Positions 219 to 64,000 of a stretch of 64,000 bases of DNA are shown piece after piece. The notes under the pieces were generated by a model, which worked only from the letters and a program-made list of their open reading frames with translations, was not told the DNA's origin and did not search any database. Within the stretch, counting starts at the first letter, position 1. Each line of letters starts with the position of its first letter. The position numbers were made by a program, and so were the translations under genes. Source of the stretch: Antedon mediterranea (taxonomy: Eukaryota > Echinodermata > Crinoidea > Comatulida > Antedonidae); contig NC_092677.1 in NCBI RefSeq assembly GCF_964355755.1, positions 23,530,101-23,594,100 on the forward strand. Reading direction: 5' to 3'.

Positions 219-3200
219 CTGAAAAGTAAAAAGAACCAGTTATATTTATTGAATTTATTTTTCAGAGTTTTTAAGTTGCTATAAATAATTTCTGTAAATA
301 TTAGTAGATAAATTTCATCACATCAAAAAGTTATTCTGCCCATGTGCATTGTAGACATGACAGCAAAAGTATTTTAATATTTGAATGAAAACTGTGGAAG
401 CAGGCTTTCTCTTCTTGTTCGTCATTGATTTGTCATTGGTTTTTCATAAATTAAGGCCAAATTATAATTTTGGGTAGATTGTATTTTAGTAGTATTTTTC
501 TTAATTTCCTGTTGTCCATAGTTAAACCGATTTTCCACTAGGCGAATTTGTTCGCGCGAATCTAACGTTTCGAAGAGAAAACAATCGCCTACTTTTTTTC
601 CACTACATGAGCGAATAGCTGCGACGTTCATATTCCTCGCATGGTTGCTGAGCATTTCGATTCGCATGAGTGCTCATGAAAGCGTCATAGTTCATTTCCT
701 GAGCTCTGATTGGTTGCGCAATATTTCGCTTCGCAAAAAGTAGAAACAATTCGAACTACTAAATTTCGGTGAACCGAAAAATCAAAGGAACTAGAATTCG
801 TCGAAGAAGGGAGTATGACAGACAGAAACTCGAATATGCATGCGCATAGCATGACGCTTTCGATTCGCGCGAACAAATTTGCCTAGTGGAAAATAGGCTT
901 TAAACATTAACGTTTCCGTAATCTAGATTTCAATATTTTAGTTTCTAGTATAGTAGTATATGATTTAAGAGACAAGGAAATTTAACAACAAATATTGACT
1001 ACAGCTATGAGTCATCTGTATTTACTTCTATTCCATCTATCAATAGCAAAGATGCAAATGGAAAAAATAAGTGCTGAGATTATTTGGACAAAATGTCTGA
1101 TTCACTGAAAGTCATAAATTGAATAAAATGTATCCTGTGTGTGTGTTAATCTAAGAGCTGTAGAAACTAATAGTATAATTTTAATGCATTATTTATTTAA
1201 AAGAAATGCAAGAATAAACCACCCACAACCAAGTATACGTTTTCCAGATTGCATTATTAATAATTACAGTTGAAGAAGATTAATTAATTATTACTAAAGT
1301 TGAAAAATAAGGGCAACTATAAGACCATAACATTACATAATTTGAACGTTATTTCTTCAGTATCTGATAAACAACAAATTAATGACAACATGTAGGAGGT
1401 AGAAGATTGAGTAGGAAGCAAAAGTTACATTCATGTCTGAAATGAGACAGATACTACGAGTACGAGTCATATAAAACATTAACTCTGTACTAAATGTTTG
1501 CAGAAATCGGTTAATAGAATCTATCTATCTCGAACTTCAGACCTTGCCTGCTGATGCCCATATGCAAAACATGTAAATCAGATTTAACGAGGAACCTAGA
1601 GGGAAATTTGAACCTATCAACATAAATGGCGGATGGTTTGATGTTGGGTTGTCTCCACAACATTAGAAATATGCCCAATTTATATACTATTTAGATTCGT
1701 ATAATTTATAACTACTATACCGCACTTATTTGATTAAACGTCCTGGGACGTTACTCCTTGGTAGGGTTTTTAGAAGCCCAATACAAAATACAACACAACA
1801 ATTAATATTAGGAAGCGATAAAATACAGTAAAAATTGTATCAAAATGCTTGGTAATTTGTAGATCATGTATTAAGTCTAAAAAGTGATCCATTCCAACAA
1901 GCAACCCACTCTAACGAGTGGTCCATTCTAACAAGCGGTTTATTCTAACAAGCAGTCTGTTCTAACAAGCAGCCCATTCTAAAATAAAAGGTGGACCATT
2001 GTAACTAGTTTAACAAATGGCCTATCTATATTAACAAAATAAAAATACAAACAAGCTTAAACTTTTTTTTTTCTGCCAAATGCATTTCACATTGTCCAAT
2101 AGATTTAAATTGAAATAAACTGTTTGTAAAATTTTGTCGATCAATATTGTTGTATGTGTCAGCTTAATCGCTCAATTTAACCACTGTGATTTTACTTTTT
2201 CTCTACATTTTCGTGGAAATAACTGTTTTGTTTCATTGGTTTGTTAAAAAAATCTGCTGGTTTATAGGACAATAAACCATGTATTTTTTTTTATGAATAT
2301 TCCAAGAATTGGAAGTTTAGTTTCTTAAATCGTAGGGCCTGTTTTTGCTGCCAAGAAATAATCCATTAATAATAGTTAATTGATTAAAACTGAAGAATTT
2401 TATATTAACACAGTGGCACATTCCTATGAGCAGCCTACTATAATTATTTGCCAGCAAAAAGAGGACCAATAGAACTGTACATAATTGATTAAAAACATGC
2501 ACGCCAATAACTGATTTCCCCCTTTTCTTGAACACACTGACAATATGACAATTGCTGGCCTACAAATATTCTGTATGACAAAAATCCCCCTCAACCCCAC
2601 CAAGAACAAATCCCCCTCAACCCCACCAAGAACAAATCCCCCTCAACCCCACCAAGAACAAATCCCCCTCAACCCCACCAAGAACAAATCCCCCTCAACC
2701 CCACCAAGAACAAATCCCCCTCAACCCTACCAAGAAGAAATCCCCCTCAACCCCTACCAAGAAGAAATCCCCCTCAACCCCTACCAAGAAGAAATCCCCC
2801 TCAACCCCTACCAAGAAGAAATCCCCCTCAACCCCACCAAGAACAAATCCCCCTCAACCCCACCAAGAACAAATCCCCCTCAACCCCACCAAGAACAAAT
2901 CTCCCTCAACCCCACCAAGAACAAATCTCCCTCAACCCCACCAAGAACAAATCTCCCTCAACCCCACCAAGAACAAATCCCCCTCAACCCCACCAAGAAC
3001 AAATCCCCCTCAACCCCACCAAGAACAAATCCCCCTCAACCCCACCAAGAACAAATCCCCCTCAACCCCACCAAGAACAAATCCCCCTCAACCCCACCAA
3101 GAACAAATCCCCCTCAACCCCACCAAGAACAAATCTCCCTCAACCCCACCAAGAACAAATCTCCCTCAACCCCACCAAGAACAAATCCCCCTCAACCCCA

Positions 3201-6200
3201 CCAAGAACAAATCCCCCTCAACCCCACCAAGAACAAATCCCCCTCAACCCCACCAAGAACAAATCCCCCTCAACCCCACCAAGAACAAATCCCCCTCAAC
3301 CCCACCAAGAACAAATCCCCCTCAACCCCACCAAGAACAAATCCCCCTCAACCCCACCAAGAACAAATCCCCCTCAACCCCACCAAGAACAAATCCCCCT
3401 CAACCCCACCAAGAACAAATCCCCCTCAACCCCACCAAGAACAAATCCCCCTCAACCCCACCAAGAACAAATCCCCCTCAACCCCACCAAGAACAAATCC
3501 CCCTCAACCCCACCAAGAACAAATCCCCCTCAACCCCACCAAGAACAAATCCCCCTCAACCCCACCAAGAACAAATCCCCCTCAACCCCACCAAGAACAA
3601 ATCCCCCTCAACCCCACCAAGAACAAATCCCCCTCAACCCCACCAAGAACAAATCCCCCTCAACCCCTACCAAGAACAAATCCCCCTCAACCCCTACCAA
3701 GAACAAATCCCCCTCAACCCCTACCAAGAACAAATCCCCCTCAACCCCTACCAAGAACAAATCCCCCTCAACCCCTACCAAGAACAAATCCCCCTCAACC
3801 CCTACCAAGAACAAATCCCCCTCAACCCCTACCAAGAACAAATCCCCCTCAACCCCTACCAAGAACAAATCCCCCTCAACCCCTACCAAGAACAAATCCC
3901 CCTCAACCCCTACCAAGAACAAATCCCCCTCAACCCCTACCAAGAACAAATCCCCCTCAACCCCACCAAGAACAAATCCCCCTCAACCCCACCAAGAACA
4001 AATCCCCCTCAACCCCACCAAGAACAAATCCCCCTCAACCCCACCAAGAACAAATCCCCCTCAACCCCACCAAGAACAAATCCCCCTCAACCCCACCAAG
4101 AACAAATCCCCCTCAACCCCACCAAGAACCAATCCCCCTCAACCCCACCAAGAACCAATCCCCCTCAACCCCACCAAGAACAAATCCCCCTCAACCCCAC
4201 CAAGAACAAATCCCCCTCAACCCCACCAAGAACAAATCCCCCTCAACCCCACCAAGAACAAATCTCCCTCAACCCCACCAAGAACAAATCTCCCTCAACC
4301 CCACCAAGAACAAATCTCCCTCAACCCCACCAAGAACAAATCCCCCTCAACCCCACCAAGAACAAATCCCCCTCAACCCCACCAAGAACAAATCCCCCTC
4401 AACCCCACCAAGAACAAATCCCCCTCAACCCCACCAAGAACAAATCCCCCTCAACCCCACCAAGAACAAATCCCCCTCAACCCCACCAAGAACAAATCCC
4501 CCTCAACCCCACCAAGAACAAATCCCCCTCAACCCCACCAAGAACAAATCCCCCTCAACCCCACCAAGAACAAATCCCCCTCAACCCCACCAAGAACAAA
4601 TCCCCCTCAACCCCACCAAGAACAAATCCCCCTCAACCCCACCAAGAACAAATCCCCCTCAACCCCACCAAGAACAAATCCCCCTCAACCCCACCAAGAA
4701 CAAATCCCCCTCAACCCCACCAAGAACAAATCCCCCTCAACCCCACCAAGAACAAATCCCCCTCAACCCCACCAAGAACAAATCCCCCTCAACCCCACCA
4801 AGAACAAATCCCCCTCAACCCCACCAAGAACAAATCCCCCTCAACCCCACCAAGAACAAATCCCCCTCAACCCCACCAAGAACAAATCCCCCTCAACCCC
4901 ACCAAGAACAAATCCCCCTCAACCCCACCAAGAACAAATCCCCCTCAACCCCACCAAGAACAAATCCCCCTCAACCCCACCAAGAACAAATCCCCCTCAA
5001 CCCCACCAAGAACAAATCCCCCTCAACCCCACCAAGAACAAATCCCCCTCAACCCCACCAAGAACAAATCCCCCTCAACCCCACCAAGAACAAATCTCCC
5101 TCAACCCCACCAAGAACAAATCTCCCTCAACCCCACCAAGAACAAATCTCCCTCAACCCCACCAAGAACAAATCCCCCTCAACCCCACCAAGAACAAATC
5201 CCCCTCAACCCCACCAAGAACAAATCCCCCTCAACCCCACCAAGAACAAATTCCCCTCAACCCCACCAAGAACAAATCCCCCTCAACCCCACCAAGAACA
5301 AATCCCCCTCAACCCCACCAAGAACAAATCCCCCTCAACCCCACCAAGAACAAATCCCCCTCAACCCCACCAAGAACAAATTCGACTATTTTTTAAATAA
5401 AACAATTCAAACAGCAACAATAGTTGGTTACATAATATCTAAATACAGTAATATAATGTGGCTGGCAAGTCCACGGTCTAGCCTTTGGCTATCTATTTAG
5501 AAAAATGAAGAAAATAATAAAAAATAAAAAAAACAGAGCTAGAATAATATATTCAATTTTGACAGAAAAGTTAAAAATATAGTATTATGGGCAAGTAAAG
5601 TATGAAAAATCAAATTTACATAAAGCCGTAAAATAAATGAGATATTTCACGAATGTTCAAAGTATGCTTTAAGTCTGATTGCTAGATCAGTTGAATCCAT
5701 TTCAATTTATGTACAGTTTGTTGCAAAATTCATCAAGCCAAAAGAAAATCCCTCATTTATTAGAATTTGGAGAATTTACAAATCCAACAATGAATTACAC
5801 ACAAATGTTATTATAGAACTTTATACATGTTAAAACTTTGTATTCTAAGAAAAATATATATTTGCTGTATAAACATTTAAGGTGTTATAAATGGCTTTCA
5901 TTGGACTATAGAAATGTTCAGAAAGTCTGAAGCCTTGAAGTACAGTTCAAGCCCTGGAAAGATGTTGTATTAACTTACTTCAAGTTTAATTACTACAGAC
6001 AATGTATTCCAAATAAGTTTCAGGAGTGCTACTTCCACATTGAGATATGTACTAGAAAACTAGTGTAAAGCTCTGTCTGCAATATCAAACTAGTTTGACA
6101 AAAAAGTGTGATGTGCCCAAATATGGTAGTGATATACTCAAATATGGTAGTGATATGACATCATCATGTTCATATATGGACACATCACGTTTTTTTTTGT

Positions 6201-50213: not shown

Positions 50214-50512
50214 CTAGAAATCAATAGAAAGATTGTGAACTGAACATTTTATTCCAATCCGTGCAGAGAGTATTAAGGAATAAAAATGTTAATTGTACTC
50301 ACATTTAATGGGAGTCAATAATAAGTACAATTATACATTTAAAACACTGAGTAAAAAAGAAACAAACAAATGGATTATGATACTGTACCTACAAAAATAA
50401 ATTTATTTAATAAAAAGAACTTGTTAAAAATATACTATTATTTACATGACGTCATTCAGGCAGGTTGTACAATGTTTACGTTAGACTATGAACAATAAAA
50501 CGTTCTCAATGT

Positions 50513-51273
50513 TTAATCAGCAAGTTCATGAGTATGTAAAAATAAGTTGTTATTATAAGACACGTGATTAGATGCTGACTGGAGTTCGATAGTCGTTTGA
50601 TAACTGGTGACGTCTGTCCAGTAGTCTGGTGAGATGCTTAAGAAGTTGTAGTTGAAGACCTCACTCAATTCTTCAACATTTTTGTCGGAATGTTCTACAT
50701 CTTCGTGTGTTTCTGATTCGTGTATCATGGCTGTAAAACAAAATAGGTTAAAATAACTTAAAGATGGCTCGTACAAGTAAGCGTTGTTCTTAATATAAAA
50801 ATGAAGAGATTCTAATTAATTATTAAAGAAACAAAGAGGATATATATTTGTTTATAAATGTTTTTCTTAATTTTAAAATACATAAGTATATTTGATATTT
50901 AATTTATACTTATGAGAAACAAGCAACAGTACTTACATGGACATTCCATTTGAAGCTCACGTAATAAATCGACATCACTGTCGTCATTGGTCTCACAGTC
51001 GCTATCACTGGTATAGTCGTCATCGCTGACCTCACATTCGTCACATGTCATCAGCACATCGGGAGACTCACACACTGACGTTATTGAATCACTTGGTAGA
51101 TGTGGAAAGTATATTCTGAGATCGGAATCCATCTCAGTTTGTAGAAGATCTTCTCTTGATAAATACGGTAGTGGACTGTCATCTTCTTCGATGTCATCAT
51201 GGAAGGTTGTAGAATACATTTCATACCACGGGAGTCTGTTATAGTCACCAATTGAAGATGTTCCAGGATTCAT
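50513..51273 (-). CDS. small acidic two-exon protein, array copy 1 (184 aa)
   Basis: Exons 50937-51273 and 50513-50730 join across a 206-nt GT-AG intron (donor GTAAGT, acceptor TTTTGTTTTACAG). The start is the first ATG of a conserved MNPGTSSIGDYNRLPWYEMY N-terminus. Visible parts: SPLPYLSREDLLQTEMDS (about 33-50), a Cys pair in CDECEVSDDD, an acidic Ser-Asp run (84-102; CK2-site-like), DLLRELQ, then in exon 2 an Asp/Glu-rich linker and EVFNYNFLSISPDYWTDV. There is no signal peptide, membrane segment or known fold. It is acidic and probably disordered, so nuclear or cytosolic. AATAAA lies on the minus strand at 50402-50407. The family is not recognised. Coding status is supported because the exons are far better conserved between copies than the intron. 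It ends HTHELAD, unlike the other copies. Confidence 0.8.
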
Positions 51274-51550
51274 TGTAGTATTACGGATTAATTGCAGAAT
51301 ACGTAAAACTTGATGTAATTAAGCAGATCGTTGGTTCAGATATTTAGGTTATAGCAGTTGAATGTCTATTGAGAAATTGATGATAATTCCACAAATCACT
51401 TGTTTTTATCACGTGGGTTTACTTTTCCTATTGTTTTAATTATTATTTGTTAGCCAATCAAAATGTGTGAAAATTCGCGGTTCCGTCGTAAATCGGTGGC
51501 GGAATGACGTTTGATGATTGATAACGCCGCTTTAACAATAGAGACATTAT
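51274..51550 (-). promoter_or_regulatory. putative promoter region of copy 1
   Basis: The 5' flank keeps, in all four complete copies, a CACGTG E-box (51413-51418), an inverted CCAAT box (51453-51457), an AATTCGCGGTTCCGTCG block and, nearer the ATG, TATAACCTAAATA. These are candidate elements only; the transcription start is unknown. Confidence 0.35.
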
Positions 51551-52127
51551 TTAAAACTATAAATACGAGCTAATTATTATATCAAAAAATTAAGATTAAA
51601 ATAATTAGAAACGTCATAATATTTTAATCCTATACAATATGATGGAATAAGTAAAAACTGTTGAATATATTTAGGTATATTTTTAAAATAAAATTTGATA
51701 AAATAATTTTTGTTCTTCCATTACTTGAAATCAGTTTAAATGAAATATTTTGAATACATTAACTTTATATCTTCGATTAAATCTTAAAAATTTGCGAAAT
51801 TATAGGCCTACAATGTTATTATTAAGAAGCTATATCTGATGCAGCCCATATCAGTTATAAGTTAAATTATCTTTTAAAAAATGCAATTAATTTAAAACTA
51901 TTATATTTAAAAAAAAATAATAGTGAAGATTGAACTAGTTTAGTGTTTATTCACCCTAAGTTCTTATAGAACTAAAATAAATGTACAAGCTCTTAATTTG
52001 AGTTCATTTAAGTAGCAAGAATATACAGTATAATAGGTTCACAGTAACTAAAGTAATTGTTTGAACCGTTTAAGCCTATTAAAATTGAAAAAAACTTTGG
52101 GCAATTAAAACATTCGTAGTTCGTGAA

Positions 52128-52200
52128 GCCCGGTTAGCTCAGTTGGTAGAGCATCAGACTTTTAATCTGAGGGTCAAGGGTTCAAGTCCCTTATTGGGCG
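52128..52200 (+). tRNA. tRNA-Lys (UUU), unit 1, intact
   Basis: 73 nt. Acceptor stem GCCCGGT pairs with ATTGGGC (two G-U), discriminator G, D arm GCTC/GAGC, anticodon loop CTTTTAA with TTT, T arm AGGGTTCAAGTCCCT. A and B boxes are canonical. A T5 terminator follows at 52206-52210. No intron. Confidence 0.97.
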
Positions 52201-53159
52201 TAATGTTTTTGACATTTTATTATCTTTTTTAGTACTTAAAAACAACTTATGAATCACAGAACTTTCTGTTATGTCGCTCAGTTAGAGGATCAAACCTTTG
52301 TCTTCTATTAATCTAAATAAGTACATCGATTTAAATATTTTTTGAAACATTATAATTATGTCTTTAGGTTAAAATATTTGGAAAATCATACAATGTTACA
52401 CGCAGCCCGTTTGTTTAAGTTGATATAACCTGTTTACTATCCTATAATATTAGAAATACTCTGAAATATAATCTTTTAAGTACATTCATGATTACTTGTA
52501 CATTCATTTAAAACTCTATATATGTTTGTTTTTTTTTAAATTTTACCCATTGTATTTTTTAACTACATGTTCTTTCCACTTTTATTTCCTTTCTTGCAGT
52601 ATAAAAATATGTTAATTATTGGTTGTATGTTCGTTGCTACTCTGTATTTCTCTATAACTTGTAGAAATAACTGTTTAATATTTGTTTTTTAATTTGGTTA
52701 CCCTACTAAATATAATGTGTTACCAGGAAAGAGTGTTCACTCATCCCTGGTGTTACTATGTCAGTACCAATAAATGAAATCAATTCGTTTCTTTCTTGCC
52801 GTCGTACTTTGAAAAGTATACTGTATTTTTCTATTGCTGTATTTAGAATTAAAAACCAATGGGCAATTTAAAACGAATGGCTTATGTAGTCAACGGGAAC
52901 CACGGCCGGTTACACACCCACAGTATTATTGTGTTCACATCACAATATCAATACAATTCAATCGGAAACGCCTTTCTTTTATGAAATATACAACTGGAAT
53001 ATCTATGCTATTACTGTTATTTTGGGCGTTATAAGTAACAAATGATTGATAGAAGTTATTGCTGTACATTATAAATTACGCAATTTAAAAAAAAATGTAG
53101 GCCTATTTGGTACAAATGTTTCTTTTTCAAAATGCAGTTAATTTAACATTATAATTGTT
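52201..53159. other. spacer of unit 1 (tRNA to next gene's 3' end)
   Basis: Conserved between units but without a frame common to all. A CTTTCTTGCAG acceptor-like site near 52590 precedes a short frame broken in units 1 and 4. Nothing else recognised. Confidence 0.6.
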
Positions 53160-53522
53160 CTAGAAATCATTAGAAAGATTGTGATTGAAAATTTTATTCC
53201 AATCCATGCAGAGTGTATTAAAGAATATATATGGTAATTGTACTCACATTTAATGGGAGTCAAAATAATATGCGAAAATACATGACACGAACGAATCTAC
53301 CATTTATTCTCCCTAAGAGTTATCTAAGTACAATTATACCTTTAAAACGCAGAGTAAAAAAGAAACCAAACAAACGAATTATGATAGGTAATAACATAAA
53401 TTTATTAAATATAAATCACTGGTTAAAACTATAATTTATATACTATTATTTACATGACGTCATTCAGGTCGTACAATGTTTACGTTAGCCTATGAACTAT
53501 TAAAAACGTTCTCAAAGTTTAA

Positions 53523-54255
53523 TCAGCAAGTTCTGTGAGTATGTAAAAATAAGTTGTTATTATAAGACACGTGATTAGATGCTGGCTGGAGTTTGGTAGT
53601 CAGTTGATAGCTGGTGACGACGTCTGTCCAGTAGTCTGGTGAGATGCTTGAGAAGTTGTAGTTGAAGACCTCACTCCATTCCATTTCTTTATCATTGTTC
53701 TTTGTACCTTCTTCGTTTTGTGTGATGGATTCAGATTCGTCTAACATGGCTGTAAAAGATAATCAAATTATTTAATATAAATATATAAAAATGTAACGAC
53801 AACGTGATTAAAAGAATTTTATGAAAGACATTATTACATTATAATAATGTTCGTCCTTCTATTAGTATTTTAAACTTTAGAGAAACTTTTAGTATGATAA
53901 ATACACAACAGTACTTACAAGGACATCCCATTTGAAGCTCACGTAATAAATCGGCATCACTGTCGTCACTGGTCTCACAGTCGCTATCACTGGCATAGTC
54001 GTCATCGCTGACCTCACATTCGTCACATGTCATTAACACATCGGGAGACTCACACACTGGCGTTGTAGAATCACTTGGTAGATGTGGAAAGTAGATTCTG
54101 AGATTTGAATCCATTTCAGTTTGTAGAAGATCTTCTCTTGACAAATACGGTAGTGGACTGTCATCTTCTTCGATGTCATCATGGAAGGTTGTAGAATACA
54201 TTTCATACCACGGGAGTCTGTTATAGTCACCAATTGAAGATGTTCCAGGATTCAT
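53523..54255 (-). CDS. small acidic two-exon protein, array copy 2 (187 aa)
   Basis: Exons 53919-54255 and 53523-53749, with a 169-nt intron. Exon 1 differs from copy 1 by a few substitutions (MDSNLRIYF, STTPVCESP, DYASDSDCETSDDSDADLL). Exon 2 begins MLDESESITQNEEGTKNNDK, more diverged and three codons longer than copy 1, but converges on EVFNYNFSSISPDYWTDVV. A 1-nt indel near the end changes the C-terminus to HTHRTC. AATAAA is at 53401-53406 (minus). Predicted protein identical to copy 3. Confidence 0.82.
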
Positions 54256-54805
54256 TGTAGTATTACGGATTAATCGCAGAATACGTAAAACTTGACGTAA
54301 TTAAGCAGATCGTTGGTTCAGATATTTACGTTATAGCAGTTGAATGTCTATTGAGAAATTGATGACAATTCTACAAATCACTTGTTTTTATCACGTGGGT
54401 TTACTTTCCCTATTGTTTTAATTATTATACGTTAGCCAATCAAAATGTGTGAAAATTCGCGGTTCCGTCGTAAATCGTTTGATGATTGATAACGCCGCTT
54501 TAACAATAGAGACATTATTTAAAACTATAAATACGAGCTAATTATTATATCAAAAAATTAAGATTAAAATAATTAGAAACGTCATAATATTTTAATCCTA
54601 TACAATATGATGGAATAAGTAAAAACTGTTGAATATATTTAGGCCTATTTTTAAAATAAAATTTTATAAAATAATTTTTGTTCTTGCATTACTTGAAATC
54701 AGTTTAAATGAAATATTTTGAATACATTAACTTTATATCTTAGGTTAAATCTTGAAAATTTGCGAAATTATAGGCCCACAATGTTATTATGAAGCTATAT
54801 CTGAT

Positions 54806-54836
54806 CATATAGAGATATTACTATAATATCTCTATG
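54806..54836. mobile_element. 31-bp palindromic mini-insertion in unit 2
   Basis: 12-bp perfect arms (ATAGAGATATTA / TAATATCTCTAT) around CTA, bordered by a perfect 7-bp direct repeat ATCTGAT (54799-54805, 54837-54843). Units 1 and 4 carry the empty site with one ATCTGAT, giving direct evidence of insertion. Confidence 0.85.
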
Positions 54837-55130
54837 ATCTGATGCAGCCCATATCAGTTATAAGTTAAATTATCTTTTAAAAAATGCAATTAATTTAACA
54901 CTATTATATTTTCTAAAAAAATAATAGTAAAGATTGAACTAGTTTAGTGTTTATTCACCCTAAGTTCTTATAGAACTAAAATAAATGTACAAGCTCTTAA
55001 TTTGAGTACATTTAAGTAGCAAGAATATACAATATAATAGGTTCACAGTAACTAAAGTAATTGTTTGAACCATTTAAGCCTATTAAAATTTAAAAAAACT
55101 TTGGGCAATGAAAACATTCGTAGTTCATGA

Positions 55131-55180
55131 GCATCAGACTTTTAATCTGAGGGTCAAGGGTTCAAGTCCCTTATTGGTCG
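55131..55180 (+). pseudogene. tRNA-Lys relic lacking 5' acceptor and D arm, unit 2
   Basis: Starts at GCATCAGACTTTTAATCTGA. The anticodon and T arms are kept, but the first 23 nt of the tRNA are deleted and the 3' end reads TTGGTCG. The A box is lost, so it is not expected to be expressed. Confidence 0.92.
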
Positions 55181-55282
55181 TATTCGTTTTTTGCTTCCAG
55201 TATCTTTCATGTCAATTTTATACTTTAGGCCAATTGAGATAAAAAACAACTTCTAAGAATGAGAACAAGGTATTTTTATGAA

Positions 55283-55355
55283 GCCCGGTTAGCTCAGTTG
55301 GTAGAGCATCAGACTTTTAATCTGAGGGACAAGGGTTTAAGTCCCGTATTGGGCG
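55283..55355 (+). pseudogene. tRNA-Lys (UUU) with damaged T arm, unit 2
   Basis: 73 nt with good acceptor, D and anticodon arms. The T loop has TTTAAGT instead of TTCAAGT (loss of invariant C56 and of the B-box C) and a stem mismatch (CCCGT). Probably inactive or weak. Confidence 0.8.
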
Positions 55356-55459
55356 TATTTGTTTTTTGCTTCCATTATCTTTGAAGTCAATTTTATACTT
55401 TAGGCCAATTGAAATTTAAAAAAAAACGTCTAAGAATGAGAACAAGGTATTTATATGAA

Positions 55460-55531
55460 GCCCGGTTAGCTCAGTTGGTAGAGCATCAGACTTTAATCTG
55501 AGGGTCAAGGGTTCAAGTCCCTTATTGGGCG
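55460..55531 (+). pseudogene. tRNA-Lys with 1-nt deletion in anticodon loop, unit 2
   Basis: Identical to the intact gene of unit 3 (58765-58837) except that one T is missing: loop CTTTAA, six nucleotides. This would disrupt the anticodon. It is either a new mutation or a base-call error in a T run. Confidence 0.8.
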
Positions 55532-56463
55532 TAATATTTTTTTCCATTTTATTATCTTTTTTAGTACTTAAAAACAACTTATGAATCACAGAACTTTCTG
55601 TTATGTCTCTCAGTTAGAGGATCACACCTTTATCTTCTATTAATCTAAATAAGTACATCGATTTAAATATTTTTTGAAACATTATAATTATGTCTTTAGG
55701 TTACAATATTTGGGAAATCATACAATGTTACACGCAGCCCGTTTGTTTAAGTTGATATAACCTGTTTACTATCCTATAATATTAGAAATACTCTGAAATA
55801 TAATCTTAATCTTCATTTAAAACTCTATATATGTTTGTTTTTTTTAATTTTACCCATTATATTTTTTAACTACATGTGTTTCTTTCCTCTTTTATTTCCT
55901 TTCTTGCAGTATAAAAATATGTTAATTATTGGTTGTATGTTCGTTGCTACTCTGTATTTCTCTATAACTTGTAGAAATAACTGTTTAATATTTGTTTTTT
56001 ATTTGGTTACCCTACTAAATATAATGTGTTACCAGGAAAGAGAGTTCACTCATCCCTGGTGTAACTATGTGAGTACCAATAAATTAAATCAATTCGTTTC
56101 TTTCTTGCCGTGGTACTTTGAAAAGTATACTGTATTTTTCTATTGCTGTATTTAGAATTAAAAACCAATGGGCAATTTAAAACGAATGGCTTATATAGTC
56201 AACGGGAACCACGGCCGGTTACACACCCACAGTATTATTGTGTTCACATCACAATATCAATTCAATCGGAAACGCCTTTCTTTTATGAAATATACAACTG
56301 GAATATCTTTGCTATTACTGGTATTTTGGGCGTTATAAGTAACAAATGATTGATAGAAGTTATTGCTGTACATTATAAATTACGCAATTTAAAAAAAAAT
56401 GTAGGCCTATTTGGTACAAATGTTTCTTTTTCAAAATGCAGTTAATTTAACATTATAATTGTT
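55532..56463. other. spacer of unit 2
   Basis: Carries a 106-codon plus frame (55835-56155) shared with unit 3 only; see rejected items. No supported gene. Confidence 0.55.
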
Positions 56464-56826
56464 CTAGAAATCATTAGAAAGATTGTGATTGAAAATTTTA
56501 TTCCAATCCATGCAGAGTGTATTAAAGAATATATATGGTAATTGTACTCACATTTAATGGGAGTCAAAATAATATGCGAAAATACATGACACGAACGAAT
56601 CTACCATTTATTCTCCCTAAGAGTTATCTAAGTACAATTATACCTTTAAAACGCAGAGTAAAAAAGAAACAAAACAAACGAATTATGATAGGTAATAACA
56701 TAAATTTATTAAATAAAAATCACTGGTTAAAACTATAATTTATATACTATTATTTACATGACGTCATTCAGGTCGTACAATGTTTACGTTAGCCTATGAA
56801 CTATTAAAAACGTTCTCAAAGTTTAA

Positions 56827-57559
56827 TCAGCAAGTTCTGTGAGTATGTAAAAATAAGTTGTTATTATAAGACACGTGATTAGATGCTGGCTGGAGTTTGG
56901 TAGTCAGTTGATAGCTGGTGACGACGTCTGTCCAGTAGTCTGGTGAGATGCTTGAGAAGTTGTAGTTGAAGACCTCACTCCATTCCATTTCTTTATCATT
57001 GTTCTTTGTACCTTCTTCGTTTTGTGTGATGGATTCAGATTCGTCTAACATGGCTGTAAAAGATAATCAAATTATTTAATATAAATATATAAAAATGTAA
57101 CGACAACGTGATTAAAAGAATTTTATGAAAGACATTATTACATTATAATAATGTTCGTCCTTCTATTAGTATTTTAAACTTTAGAGAAACTTTTAGTATG
57201 ATAAATACACAACAGTACTTACAAGGACATCCCATTTGAAGCTCACGTAATAAATCGGCATCACTGTCGTCACTGGTCTCACAGTCGCTATCACTGGCAT
57301 AGTCGTCATCGCTGACCTCACATTCGTCACATGTCATTAACACATCGGGAGACTCACACACTGGCGTTGTAGAATCACTTGGTAGATGTGGAAAGTAGAT
57401 TCTGAGATTTGAATCCATTTCAGTTTGTAGAAGATCTTCTCTTGACAAATACGGTAGTGGACTGTCATCTTCTTCGATGTCATCATGGAAGGTTGTAGAA
57501 TACATTTCATACCACGGGAGTCTGTTATAGTCACCAATTGAAGATGTTCCAGGATTCAT
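56827..57559 (-). CDS. small acidic two-exon protein, array copy 3 (187 aa)
   Basis: Exons 57223-57559 and 56827-57053. Same splice sites and same predicted protein as copy 2, reflecting a very recent duplication of the whole unit. AATAAA is at 56705-56710 (minus). The promoter-side E-box and CCAAT box are retained. Confidence 0.82.
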
Positions 57560-58109
57560 TGTAGTATTACGGATTAATCGCAGAATACGTAAAACTTGAC
57601 ATAATTAAGCAGATCGTTGGTTCAGATATTTACGTTATAGCAGTTGAATGTCTATTGAGAAATTGATGACAATTCTACAAATCACTTGTTTTTATCACGT
57701 GGGTTTACTTTCCCTATTGTTTTAATTATTATACGTTAGCCAATCAAAATGTGTGAAAATTCGCGGTTCCGTCGTAAATCGTTTGATGATTGATAACGCC
57801 GCTTTAACAATAGAGACATTATTTAAAACTATAAATACGAGCTAATTATTATATCAAAAAATTAAGATTAAAATAATTAGAAACGTCATAATATTTTAAT
57901 CCTATACAATATGATGGAATAAGTAAAAACTGTTGAATATATTTAGGCCTATTTTTAAAATAAAATTTTATAAAATAATTTTTGTTCTTGCATTACTTGA
58001 AATCAGTTTAAATGAAATATTTTGAATACATTAACTTTATATCTTAGGTTAAATCTTGAAAATTTGCGAAATTATAGGCCCACAATGTTATTATGAAGCT
58101 ATATCTGAT

Positions 58110-58140
58110 CATATAGAGATATTACTATAATATCTCTATG
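58110..58140. mobile_element. 31-bp palindromic mini-insertion in unit 3
   Basis: Identical to 54806-54836 with the same ATCTGAT duplication. It was inherited through unit duplication and is not an independent insertion. Confidence 0.85.
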
Positions 58141-58434
58141 ATCTGATGCAGCCCATATCAGTTATAAGTTAAATTATCTTTTAAAAAATGCAATTAATTT
58201 AACACTATTATATTTTCTAAAAAAATAATAGTAAAGATTGAACTAGTTTAGTGTTTATTCACCCTAAGTTCTTATAGAACTAAAATAAATGTACAAGCTC
58301 TTAATTTGAGTACATTTAAGTAGCAAGAATATACAATATAATAGGTTCACAGTAACTAAAGTAATTGTTTGAACCATTTAAGCCTATTAAAATTTAAAAA
58401 AACTTTGGGCAATGAAAACATTCGTAGTTCATGA

Positions 58435-58484
58435 GCATCAGACTTTTAATCTGAGGGTCAAGGGTTCAAGTCCCTTATTGGTCG
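58435..58484 (+). pseudogene. tRNA-Lys relic lacking 5' part, unit 3
   Basis: Same truncation as the unit 2 relic at 55131-55180. Confidence 0.92.
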
Positions 58485-58586
58485 TATTCGTTTTTTGCTT
58501 CCAGTATCTTTCATGTCAATTTTATACTTTAGGCCAATTGAGATAAAAAACAACTTCTAAGAATGAGAACAAGGTATTTTTATGAA

Positions 58587-58659
58587 GCCCGGTTAGCTCA
58601 GTTGGTAGAGCATCAGACTTTTAATCTGAGGGACAAGGGTTTAAGTCCCGTATTGGGCG
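58587..58659 (+). pseudogene. tRNA-Lys (UUU) with damaged T arm, unit 3
   Basis: Same TTTAAGT and CCCGT changes as 55283-55355. Confidence 0.8.
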
Positions 58660-58764
58660 TATTTGTTTTTTGCTTCCATTATCTTTGAAGTCAATTTTAT
58701 ACTTTAGGCCAATTGAAATTTAAAAAAAAAACGTCTAAGAATGAGAACAAGGTATTTATATGAA

Positions 58765-58837
58765 GCCCGGTTAGCTCAGTTGGTAGAGCATCAGACTTTT
58801 AATCTGAGGGTCAAGGGTTCAAGTCCCTTATTGGGCG
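58765..58837 (+). tRNA. tRNA-Lys (UUU), unit 3, intact
   Basis: 73 nt, identical to the unit 1 gene, with a complete seven-base anticodon loop and canonical A/B boxes. A T7 run follows at 58843-58849. Confidence 0.96.
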
Positions 58838-59766
58838 TAATATTTTTTTCCATTTTATTATCTTTTTTAGTACTTAAAAACAACTTATGAATCACAGAAC
58901 TTTCTGTTATGTCTCTCAGTTAGAGGATCACACCTTTATCTTCTATTAATCTAAATAAGTACATCGATTTAAATATTTTTTGAAACATTATAATTATGTC
59001 TTTAGGTTACAATATTTGGGAAATCATACAATGTTACACGCAGCCCGTTTGTTTAAGTTGATATAACCTGTTTACTATCCTATAATATTAGAAATACTCT
59101 GAAATATAATCTTAATCTTCATTTAAAACTCTATATATGTTTGTTTTTTTTAATTTTACCCATTATATTTTTTAACTACATGTGTTTCTTTCCTCTTTTA
59201 TTTCCTTTCTTGCAGTATAAAAATATGTTAATTATTGGTTGTATGTTCGTTGCTACTCTGTATTTCTCTATAACTTGTAGAAATAACTGTTTAATATTTG
59301 TTTTTTATTTGGTTACCCTACTAAATATAATGTGTTACCAGGAAAGAGAGTTCACTCATCCCTGGTGTAACTATGTGAGTACCAATAAATTAAATCAATT
59401 CGTTTCTTTCTTGCCGTGGTACTTTGAAAAGTATACTGTATTTTTCTATTGCTGTATTTAGAATTAAAAACCAATGGGCAATTTAAAACGAATGGCTTAT
59501 ATAGTCAACGGGAACCACGGCCGGTTACACACCCACAGTATTATTGTGTTCACATCACAATATCAATTCAATCGGAAACGCCTTTCTTTTATGAAATATA
59601 CAACTGGAATATCTTTGCTATTACTGGTATTTTGGGCGTTATAAGTAACAAATGATTGATAGAAGTTATTGCTGTACATTATAAATTACGCAATTAAAAA
59701 AAAATGTAGGCCTATTCGGTACAAATGTTTCTTTTTCAAAATGCAGTTAATTTAACATTAATTGTT
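58838..59766. other. spacer of unit 3
   Basis: Near-identical to the unit 2 spacer; no supported gene. Confidence 0.55.
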
Positions 59767-60129
59767 CTAGAAATCATTAGAAAGATTGTGATTGAAAATT
59801 TTATTCCAATCCGTGCAGAGTGTATTAAAGAATAAATATGGTAATTGTACTCACATTTAATGGGAGTCAAAATAATATGCGAAAATACATGACACGAACG
59901 AATCTACAATTTATTCTCCCTAAGAGTTATCTAAGTACAATTATACCTTTAAAACGCAGAGTAAAAAAGAAACAAAACAAACGAATTATGATAGGTAATA
60001 ACATAAATTTATTAAATAAAAATCACTGGTTAAAACTATAATTTATATACTATTATTTACATGACGTCATTCAGGTCGTACAATGTTTACGTTAGCCTAT
60101 GAACTATTAAAAACGTTCTCAAAGTTTAA

Positions 60130-60841
60130 TCAGCAAGTTCTATGAGTATGTAAAAATAAGTTGTTATTATAAGACACGTGATTAGATGCTGGCTGGAGTT
60201 TGGTAGTCAGTTGATAGCTGGTGACGACGTCTGTCCAGTAGTCTGGTGAGATGCTTGAGAAGTTGTAGTTGAAGACCTCACTCCATTCCATTTCTTTATC
60301 ATTGTTCTTTGTACCTTCTTCGTTTTGTGTGATGGATTCAGATTCGTCTAACATGGCTGTAAAAGATAATCAAATTATTTAATATAAATATATAAAAATG
60401 TAACGACAACGTGATTAAAAGAATTTTATGAAAGACATTATTACATTATAATAATGTTCGTCCTTCTATTAGTATTTTAAACTTTAGAAAATCTTTTAGT
60501 ATGATAAACACACAACAGTACTTACAAGGACATCCCATTTGAAGCTCACGTAATAAATCGGCATCACTGTCGTCACTGGTCTCACGGTCGCTATCACTGG
60601 TATAGTCGTCATCGCTGACCTCACATTCGGGAGACTCACACACTGGCGTTGTAGAATCACTTGGTAGATGTGGAAAGTAGATTCTGAGATTTGAATCCAT
60701 TTCAGTTTGTAGAAGATCTTCTCTTGACAAATACGGTAGTGGACTGTCATCTTCTTCGATGTCATCATGGAAGGTTGTAGAATACATTTCATACCACGGG
60801 AGTCTGTTATAGTCACCAATTGAAGATGTTCCAGGATTCAT
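60130..60841 (-). CDS. small acidic two-exon protein, array copy 4 (180 aa)
   Basis: Exons 60526-60841 and 60130-60356. A 21-nt in-frame deletion removes seven residues including one Cys (CESPDVLMTCDECEVS becomes CESPECEVS), and CET is changed to RET. The frame, splice sites and the remaining motifs are kept, so the deletion supports a protein-level constraint. AATAAA is at 60008-60013 (minus). Confidence 0.8.
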
Positions 60842-61072
60842 TGTGGTATTACGGATTAATTGCAGAATACGTAAAACTTGACGTAATTAAGCAGATCGTT
60901 GGTTCAGATATTTACGTTATAGCAGTTGAATGTCTATTGAGAAATTGATGACAATTCTACAAATCACTTGTTTTTATCACGTGGGTTTACTTTCCCTATT
61001 GTTTTAATTATTATTTGTTAGCCAATCAAAATGTGTTAAAATTCGCGGTTCCGTCGTAAATCGGTGGCGGCA

Positions 61073-61383
61073 TCAATCAATCAATCAATCGTTCGATTTA
61101 TATAGCGCCATTCCAACATTCATTGCTCATGGCGCTGTAGACAAAATCAGAAAAGGTGAGTTTTGAGTAGTGACTTAAAGTGACTCAATAACGATGTGTG
61201 TTTAATGTTCAAGGGTAGGTGGTTCCAGAGCCTAGGTCCAGCAACACTGAAAGTCCGATCTCTCCAACTATGTTTGCTCCTTGGAATGTCCAGTAGCACC
61301 TGATGACTAGATCTTAGTTCTCGCTTTCCCTTCTTGACTGTCAACAATTCTGAGACATATTTTGGAGCGTAACTATTTAGGCA
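61073..61383 (-). mobile_element. 5'-truncated non-LTR retrotransposon inserted in unit 4
   Basis: The minus reading includes RTFSVAGPRLWNHLPLNIKH and LLSHFKSLLKTHLF (61147-61347), a classic CR1/L2-type polymerase C-terminus. It ends in GGCGCTATATAAATCGAACG and an (ATTG)n tail at 61073-61090. It interrupts the promoter-side flank of gene copy 4 exactly where unit 1 reads GGTGGCGGAATGACG. No obvious target duplication. Confidence 0.88.
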
Positions 61384-62006
61384 TGACGTTTGATGATTGA
61401 TAACGCTGCTTTAACAATAGAGACATTATTTAAAACTATAAATACGAGCTAATTATTATATCAAAAAATTAAGATTAAAATAATTAGAAACGTCATAATA
61501 TTTTAATCCTATACAATATGATGGAATAAGTAAAAACTGTTGAATATATTTAGGTATATTTTTAAAATAAAATTTGATAAAATAATTTTTGTTCTTCCAT
61601 TACTTGAAATCAGTTTAAATGAAATATTTTGAATACATTAACTTTATATTTTCGATTAAATCTTAAAAATTTGTGAAATTATAGGCCTACAATGTTATTA
61701 TTAAGAAGCTATATCTGATGCAGCCCATATCAGTTATAAGTTAAATTATCTTTTAAAAAATGCAATTAATTTAACACTATCATATTTTCTAAAAAAATAA
61801 TAGTGAAGATTGAACTAGTTTAGTTTTTATTCACCCTAAGTTCTTATAGAACTAAAATAAATGTACAAGCTCTTAATTTGAGTGCATTTAAGTAGCAAGA
61901 AGATACAATATAATAGGTTCACTTAACTAAAGTAATTGTTTGAACCATTTAAGCCTATTAAAATTGAAAAAAACTTTGGGCAATTAAAACATTCGTAGTT
62001 TGTGAA

Positions 62007-62079
62007 GCCCGGTTAGCTCAGTTGGTAGAGCATCAGACTTTTAATCTGAGGGTCAAGGGTTCAAGTCCCTTATTGGGCG
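62007..62079 (+). tRNA. tRNA-Lys (UUU), unit 4, intact
   Basis: 73 nt, identical to the unit 1 gene. A single tRNA lies in this unit, as in unit 1. A TTTTTT terminator follows at 62084-62089. Confidence 0.96.
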
Positions 62080-63040
62080 TAATGTTTTTTACATTTTATT
62101 ATCTTTTTTAGTACTTAAAAACAACTTATGAATCACAGAACTTTCTGTTATGTCTCTCAGTTAGAGGATCAAACCTTTGTCTTCTATTAATCTAAATAAG
62201 TACATCGATTTAAATATTTTTTGAAACATTATAATTATGTCTTTAGGTTAAAATATTTGGAAAATCATACAATGTTACACGCAGCCCGTTTGTTTAAGTT
62301 GATATAACCTGTTTACTATCCTATAATATTAGAAATACTCTGAAATATAATCTTTTAAGTACATTCATGATTACTTGTACATTCATTTAAAACTTTATAT
62401 ATGTTTGTTTTTTTTTAATTTTACCCATTGTATTTTTTAACTACATGTGTTTCTTTCCACTTTTATTTCCTTTCTTGCAGTATAAAAATATGTTAATTAT
62501 TGGTTGTATGTTCGTTGCTACTCTGTATTTCTCTATAACTTGTAGAAATAACTGTTTAATATTTGTTTTTTAATTTGGTTACCCTACTAAATAAAATGTG
62601 TTACCAGGAAAGAGTGTTCACTCATCCCTGGTGTTACTATGTCAGTACCAATAAATGAAATCAATTCGTTTCTTTCTTGCCGTGGTACTTTGAAAAGTAT
62701 ACTGTATTTTTCTATTGCTGTATTTAGAATTAAAAACCAATGGGCAATTTAAAACGAATGGCTTATGTAGTCAACGGGAACCACGGCCGGTTACACACCC
62801 ACAGTATTATTGTGTTCACATCACAATATCAATACAATTCAATCGGAAACGCCTTTCTTTTATGAAATATACAACTGGAATATCTATGCTATTACTGTTA
62901 TTTTGGGCCTTATAAGTAACAAATGATTGGTAGAAGTTATTGCTGTACATTATAAATTAAGCAATTTAAAAAAAAATGTAGGCCTATTTGGTACAAATGT
63001 TTCTTTTTCAAAATGCAGTTAATTTAACATTATAATTGTT
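62080..63040. other. spacer of unit 4
   Basis: Resembles the unit 1 spacer more than units 2 and 3 (same frameshifted TTTTTTAATTTGG and TATGTCAGTACC). No supported gene. Confidence 0.55.
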
Positions 63041-63408
63041 CTAGAAATCATTAGAAAGATTGTGATTGAAAATTTTATTCCAATCCGTGCAGAGTGTATT
63101 AAAGAATAAATATGGTAATTGTACTCACATTTAATGAGAGTCAAAATAATATGCGAAAATACATGACACGAACGAATCTACAATTTATTCTCCCTAAGAG
63201 TTATCTAAGTACAATTATACCTTTAAAACGCAGAGTAAAAAAGAAACAAAACAAACGAATTATGATAGGTAATAACATAAATTTATTAAATAAAAATCAC
63301 TGGTTAAAACTATAATTTATATACTGTACTATTATTTACATGACGTCATTCAGGTCGTACAATGTTTACGTTAGCCTATGAACTATTAAAAACGTTCTCA
63401 AAGTTTAA

Positions 63409-64000
63409 TCAGCAAGTTCTATGAGTATGTAAAAATAAGTTGTTATTATAAGACACGTGATTAGATGCTGGCTGGAGTTTGGTAGTCAGTTGATAGCTGG
63501 TGACGACGTCTGTCCAGTAGTCTGGTGAGATGCTTGAGAAGTTGTAGTTGAAGACCTCACTCCATTCCATTTCTTGATCATTGTTCTTTGTACCTTCTTC
63601 GTTTTGTGTGATGGATTCAGATTCGTCTAACATGGCTGTAAAAGATAATCAAATTATTTAATATAAATATATAAAAATGTAACGACAACGTGATTAAAAG
63701 AATTTTATGAAAGACATTATTACATTATAATAATGTTCGTCCTTCTATTAGTATTTTAAACTTTAGAGAAACTTTTAGTATGATAAACACACAACAGTAC
63801 TTACATGGACATCCCATTTGAAGCTCACGTAATAAATCGGCATCACTGTCGTCACTGGTCTCACGGTCGCTATCACTGGTATAGTCGTCATCGCTGACCT
63901 CACATTCGGGAGACTCACACACTGGCGTTGTAGAATCACTTGGTAGATGTGGAAAGTAGATTCTGAGATTTGAATCCATTTCAGTTTGTAGAAGATCTTC
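63409..64000 (-). CDS. small acidic two-exon protein, array copy 5 (partial at window edge)
   Basis: Exon 2 is 63409-63635. Exon 1 starts at its 3' end at 63805 and runs past 64000, so the N-terminus is missing. It shares the seven-residue deletion and the RET change with copy 4; the linker has NNDQEMEW. AATAAA is at 63282-63287 (minus). Confidence 0.78.

Follow-up and report, generated by a model that had tools for sequence, protein, structure and literature searches.

A tandem acidic-protein gene array at the edge of a satellite-like tRNA-Lys(UUU) array in the crinoid Antedon mediterranea

Layout of the locus

The window, that is, the whole stretch of 64,000 nucleotides analysed here, covers C8:23530101-23594100 of the Antedon mediterranea genome (354 Mb in 18 contigs; C8 is NC_092677.1). 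Positions above 64000 continue the window numbering along C8, of which the next 99.5 kb were read gap-free, and all copy numbers derive from one assembly. From about 50.2 kb onward a unit of about 3.3 kb is repeated, and four-copy sequence families recur at this spacing. Each unit in the window holds a two-exon gene for an acidic protein on the minus strand and, upstream of the gene's ATG, tRNA-Lys(UUU) on the plus strand, an assignment on which ARAGORN and Rfam concur. The window contains four complete units of gene plus tRNA-Lys and part of a fifth, represented by the 3' part of gene copy 5 (Table 1). Beyond the right edge the gene array runs on for about 35 kb, so that it comprises overall nine complete two-exon copies, within 50.5-98.8 kb, and one 5' gene fragment at 68.5 kb (C8:23580-23629 kb). 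In a genome-wide protein search, exon matches were confined to this array. The preliminary description of this DNA had proposed at least 4.3 tandem units with a divergent plus-strand tRNA-Lys about 0.85-1.2 kb upstream of the ATG. Both points are borne out, with distances of 853-1166 bp in the window and an array larger than was claimed; missing from it were the three tRNA-Lys sequences in each of units 2 and 3, the continuation of the array past the window, and an array of 229 tRNA monomers that begins about 41 kb beyond the window edge.

Identity is 99.8% between units 2 and 3 across 3.3 kb and about 97% among the left halves of units 2-5, and units 1 and 4 share 98.2% identity over the right half, which contains the tRNA; these values indicate recent co-duplication of gene and tRNA. 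Units 4 and 5 have in common an insert of about 307 bp; its ends show an overlap of about 5 bp between alignment pieces, compatible with a target-site duplication.

Gene copies 1-6 are closely spaced. The interval between copies 6 and 7 contains an otopetrin sequence, and that between copies 7 and 8 an NLR-like gene for a NACHT protein with LRR-like repeats; a divergent forkhead gene directly adjoins the 229-monomer tRNA array. Additionally, a conserved stretch about 75-80 bp long (cggaaacgccttnctttt...tggaatatctatg), which had no Rfam match in the window, is found about 0.35-0.9 kb downstream of gene copies. Elsewhere in the window there are a long tandem repeat (NPPQPHQEQIPLNPTKNKSPSTPPRT) that can be read through in several frames and is likely a minisatellite, and a second coding-like minisatellite with VEDGLKCV repeats. 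Bindin is an echinoderm protein, and a bindin core with LGLLLRHLRHHSDLLANI is present in the genome, which marks it as that of an echinoderm. Searches for COX1 and for tunicate GH6 gave no match, the GH6 result carrying no information since its control was silent as well.

Table 1 Features of the locus in window numbering; (c) marks numbering continued along C8.
Feature	Position	Strand	Details
Tandem repeat, likely minisatellite	2515-5500
Second coding-like minisatellite	24760-26500
Gene copy 1	50513..51273	-	exon 1 51273-50937, intron 50936-50731 (GTAAGT...CAG), exon 2 50730-50513; 184 aa, pI 4.05
Promoter-like block 5' of ATG	51274..51542	-	ATTGG (CCAAT) box and CACGTGATAAAAACAA
tRNA-Lys(UUU), unit 1	52128..52200	+	intact; 72.2 bits
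75-80 bp element	52951-53029; 84085, 93462, 97042, 100940 (c)
Gene copy 2	53523..54255	-	exon 1 54255-53919, intron 53918-53750, exon 2 53749-53523; 187 aa
tRNA-Lys pseudogene, unit 2	55108..55180	+	truncated, without acceptor and D arms; Rfam match 55121-55172
tRNA-Lys(UUU), unit 2	55283..55355	+	T-stem mismatch, altered B box
tRNA-Lys-like, unit 2	55460..55531	+	anticodon loop short by one base
Gene copy 3	56827..57559	-	exon 1 57559-57223, intron 57222-57054, exon 2 57053-56827; 187 aa, protein identical to that of copy 2
tRNA-Lys pseudogene, unit 3	58412..58484	+	truncated
tRNA-Lys(UUU), unit 3	58587..58659	+	T-stem mismatch
tRNA-Lys(UUU), unit 3	58765..58837	+	intact
Gene copy 4	60130..60841	-	exon 1 60841-60526, intron 60525-60357, exon 2 60356-60130; 180 aa (7-aa in-frame deletion)
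Insert common to units 4 and 5	61074..61379	+	about 307 bp; retrotransposon-like peptide on minus strand
tRNA-Lys(UUU), unit 4	62007..62079	+	intact
Gene copy 5 (cut by window edge)	63409..64000	-	ATG 64120 (c), intron 63804-63636, exon 2 63635-63409; 180 aa in full
tRNA-Lys copy	65245-65317 (c)		anticodon now TAT (reads Ile)
tRNA	83762 (c)		degenerate
NLR-like gene	88237-92317 (c)		NACHT, LRR-like repeats
Divergent forkhead gene	103570-104361 (c)	-
229-monomer tRNA-Lys(UUU) array	104867-144988 (c)	+	C8:23634967-23675088

The acidic-protein gene

All nine gene copies retain the GTAAGT donor and CAG acceptor around an intron of 131-206 bp, and in all nine the frame is open, encoding 180-187 aa with a pI of 4.05. 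An AATAAA or ATTAAA follows 91-121 bp beyond the stop in every copy, and the promoter-like block, within about 270 bp 5' of the ATG, is present in all copies with some changes. The single length of 187 aa given previously applies to copies 2 and 3; the protein has 184 aa in copy 1 and 180 aa in copies 4 and 5.

The gene copies differ by at least 121 substitutions, from which chance alone would yield about 4.9 stops; none is seen (P ~0.007). Eight of nine exon gap events are multiples of three, the sole exception lying just before the stop, the corresponding count for intron gap events being 6 of 19. Copy 1 differs from the other copies at 0.40-0.45 per site in the intron, with a dN of 0.026-0.074 and a dS of 0.085-0.17 in exon 1, and introns diverge 2-3 times faster than exons. 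The dN/dS ratio is mostly 0.4-0.8; for copies 8 and 9 it is 1.1, a value based on few changes. The marks of a protein-coding tandem family are therefore all present, namely open frame, splice sites, in-frame indels and constraint above that of the intron. Taken together, the open frames, in-frame gaps, slow exons and conserved upstream block argue that the gene is real and that it is under moderate purifying selection. The preliminary description had called a spliced minus-strand gene of unmatched family, a call that stands on the nine open frames and conserved splice sites; it had named equal exon and intron rates as evidence against the gene, and when the two rates were compared the exons proved slower. 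That the copies are pseudogenes or spurious frames in a satellite-like repeat, as the lack of Pfam or PDB relatives and an array setting with recent duplications might suggest, is extremely improbable, given frames that stay open through so many substitutions, gaps that keep the frame, conserved GTAAGT and CAG, and faster intron divergence.

The introns of copies 2 and 7 differ at 0.07, whereas their exon 1 divergence is about that between copies 2 and 6, whose introns differ at 0.34; a similar intron beside a diverged exon 1 points to gene conversion.

Searches of Pfam and PDB with the sequence and with a seven-sequence profile returned nothing convincing for the protein. A viral origin was considered and rejected, as a peptide pattern and tblastn found no relative in viral contigs. 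AlphaFold2 prediction of exon 1 from three sequences gave a mean pLDDT of 51 and a pTM of 0.16, values obtained with too shallow an alignment and compatible with disorder. Together with the composition, this poor fold prediction suggests a disordered acidic protein. An LxCxE-like stretch (LMTCDECE, then an acidic Ser/Asp run) is absent from copies 4 and 5, and we do not claim it as a motif. The gene probably represents a lineage-specific tandem family encoding a short, acidic, disordered protein. We infer that it is expressed, as are at least some of the tRNAs.

tRNA-Lys monomers in the gene units and in the adjoining array

In the adjoining array, 229 head-to-tail tRNA-Lys(UUU) monomers, each about 175 bp long, extend over about 40 kb, all on the plus strand; the period is mostly 172-177 bp, and with few exceptions the spacing stays within 172-180 bp. 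The anticodon is TTT in 222 of the 229, and about 107 look intact in stems, anticodon, B box and terminator. A canonical B box is found in 147 of 229, and every monomer has a T4 run within 40 bp, features that are compatible with Pol III transcription; a defective class with the B box GTTAAAGCCCG or ATTAAAGCCCG accounts for more than 40 monomers. The array is a homogeneous tandem tDNA array, with one isoacceptor and neighbours less than 1 kb apart. tRNA and spacer evolve in concert: agreement with the consensus is 0.946 for the tRNA and 0.932 for the spacer, and a self-match at an offset of 12,592 reveals a higher-order duplication, in which a 9,965-bp segment recurs with 98.5% identity. Singletons per site are nearly equal in the tRNA (0.43) and the spacer (0.39), indicating that new tRNA mutations are not removed more than spacer mutations and that single copies drift. 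The array is thus satellite-like, with drifting copies, higher-order repeats and no visible selection on single copies.

The gene units carry one to three monomers of the same 175-bp repeat, the spacer matching at 93-96% where it is whole. Units 2 and 3 have three tRNA-Lys sequences each, spaced 175-177 bp apart, and several of these are defective. A tRNA-Lys sequence lies 0.7-1.2 kb upstream of eight of the nine genes in divergent orientation, including the earlier-diverged copies 7 and 8. For copies 2, 3 and 7 the nearest tRNA is truncated or degenerate, and copy 9, which has none within 6.1 kb, still has an intact open frame and promoter block. Truncated or mutated tRNAs occur in units 2, 3, 5 and 7, while all nine genes stay open; the tRNAs of the gene units are decaying and the genes are kept. 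The copy whose anticodon now reads Ile is a candidate for an anticodon-switch pseudogene or for mischarging.

A genome search with the tRNA-Lys repeat gave 193 matches, on a single strand; among the matches listed (about 100 of the 193), nearly all fall at the C8 array locus, and dispersed single tRNA-Lys(UUU) genes lie on C6 and at two other sites of C8. A tRNA-derived SINE was rejected, since dispersed copies on both strands would be expected in place of these local, single-strand ones. C2, C3, C7 and C9 carry tRNA-Lys(CUU) in tandem at intervals of 145-151 bp, and a tandem tRNA-Glu(CUC) array of about 65-70 matches at about 425-bp spacing occupies C10:14303911-14365651, where larger blocks of about 10 kb seem to be repeated. 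tRNA arraying is not special to the Lys(UUU) locus in this genome. No remnant of the acidic-protein gene was found in the Lys(CUU) loci examined (C2, C3 and C7) or at the dispersed Lys(UUU) loci examined.

Origin of the pairing and relation to known arrays

Given the decay of the unit tRNAs, the defective or absent tRNA neighbours and the few lysines of the protein (only 1-3), we read the tie between gene and tRNA as linkage. On this reading, to which we assign a probability of roughly 0.8, the gene array sits at the edge of the tRNA array and in part inside it, and unequal crossing-over or conversion let the two hitchhike without forming a functional module. An ancestral segment would have consisted of the gene on the minus strand, about 0.7-1.2 kb of sequence and a tRNA-Lys monomer on the plus strand. 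Repeated unequal crossing-over or conversion may then have duplicated it, homology for the exchange being offered first by the 175-bp tRNA monomers and later by the 3.3-kb units. Compared with unit 1, units 2 and 3 each contain two additional monomers, placed precisely at the tRNA, as unequal exchange between monomers predicts, and crossing-over is accordingly the mechanism that we infer. The adjoining bare 175-bp monomer would have grown to 229 copies and, like a satellite, become homogeneous and organised in higher-order repeats. Individual tRNA copies would drift, and the gene copies would be preserved by purifying selection on the protein. Counting against linkage is the upstream tRNA-Lys in eight of nine genes, which ancestral linkage explains and which a mild functional tie would explain as well.

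Insulator activity of tRNA genes is known from yeast and mammals, and the preliminary description had considered the tRNA as a boundary or promoter element. In that case the divergent tRNA-Lys would insulate each gene promoter or help to open it, which would fit an orientation and a distance of 0.7-1.2 kb kept in eight of nine copies. Such a module calls for an intact tRNA beside every gene copy; the one nearest to copies 2, 3 and 7 is defective and copy 9 has none within 6 kb, the gene possesses a conserved promoter-like block of its own, and neither the lone tRNA-Lys genes nor the Lys(CUU) arrays examined are accompanied by gene remnants. We hence regard this role as very unlikely. The fuller version, in which a stage-specific orphan family has its copy number and expression tied to the tRNA satellite, the tRNA-Lys monomers serving it as Pol III boundary or opening elements, seems to us very unlikely. 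Joint amplification stood in the same description as a means of raising the dosage of both genes. A real spliced gene and tRNA-Lys are indeed co-duplicated in the same units, both are multicopy, and the gene frames are kept open, as would be expected if selection had raised the copy numbers of two genes needed together, such as in eggs or early embryos. Selection for dosage is nonetheless very improbable: a protein with so few lysines creates no demand for tRNA-Lys, the unit tRNAs decay while the genes are kept, and beside the 229 tRNA-Lys copies that exist next door without the gene, the few in the gene units do not matter for dosage.

We know of no described example of a gene-tRNA-Lys pairing of this kind, and the evidence does not require the pairing as a system. 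The linkage reading provides a clean animal case of a tRNA array turned satellite-like and carrying a constrained orphan gene at its edge. It also cautions that gene-tRNA co-amplification should not be read as function without a check of the neighbourhood.

Lineage-specific tandem gene families evolve by unequal exchange and conversion. The gene array resembles them in that recent units are near-identical, older ones diverged and introns mosaic, and departs from them in having no known protein family and in including a tRNA monomer in its unit. Tandem tRNA gene arrays have been described in Entamoeba (PMC2652664), and the likeness is considerable: head-to-tail units with one or few tRNA genes, homogenised, in many copies and of unclear function. 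Unlike those arrays (PMC2652664), the present one belongs to an animal, carries one isoacceptor per monomer with a unique-looking 102-bp spacer, and includes many pseudogene monomers and an adjoining protein-gene array that shares the monomer. Clusters of fifty or more tDNAs are known from Nematostella and teleosts (PMC2888827), with which this locus shares the number of at least 50 tDNAs, spacing below 1 kb, mostly parallel orientation and fast turnover by local duplication. The Nematostella and zebrafish clusters are reported to form mostly heterogeneous pairs (PMC2888827), whereas here practically a single isoacceptor makes up 229 monomers with higher-order repeats. The C8 locus is thus a further tandem tRNA array, of a single isoacceptor, satellite-like, and bordered by an array of an orphan gene under constraint.
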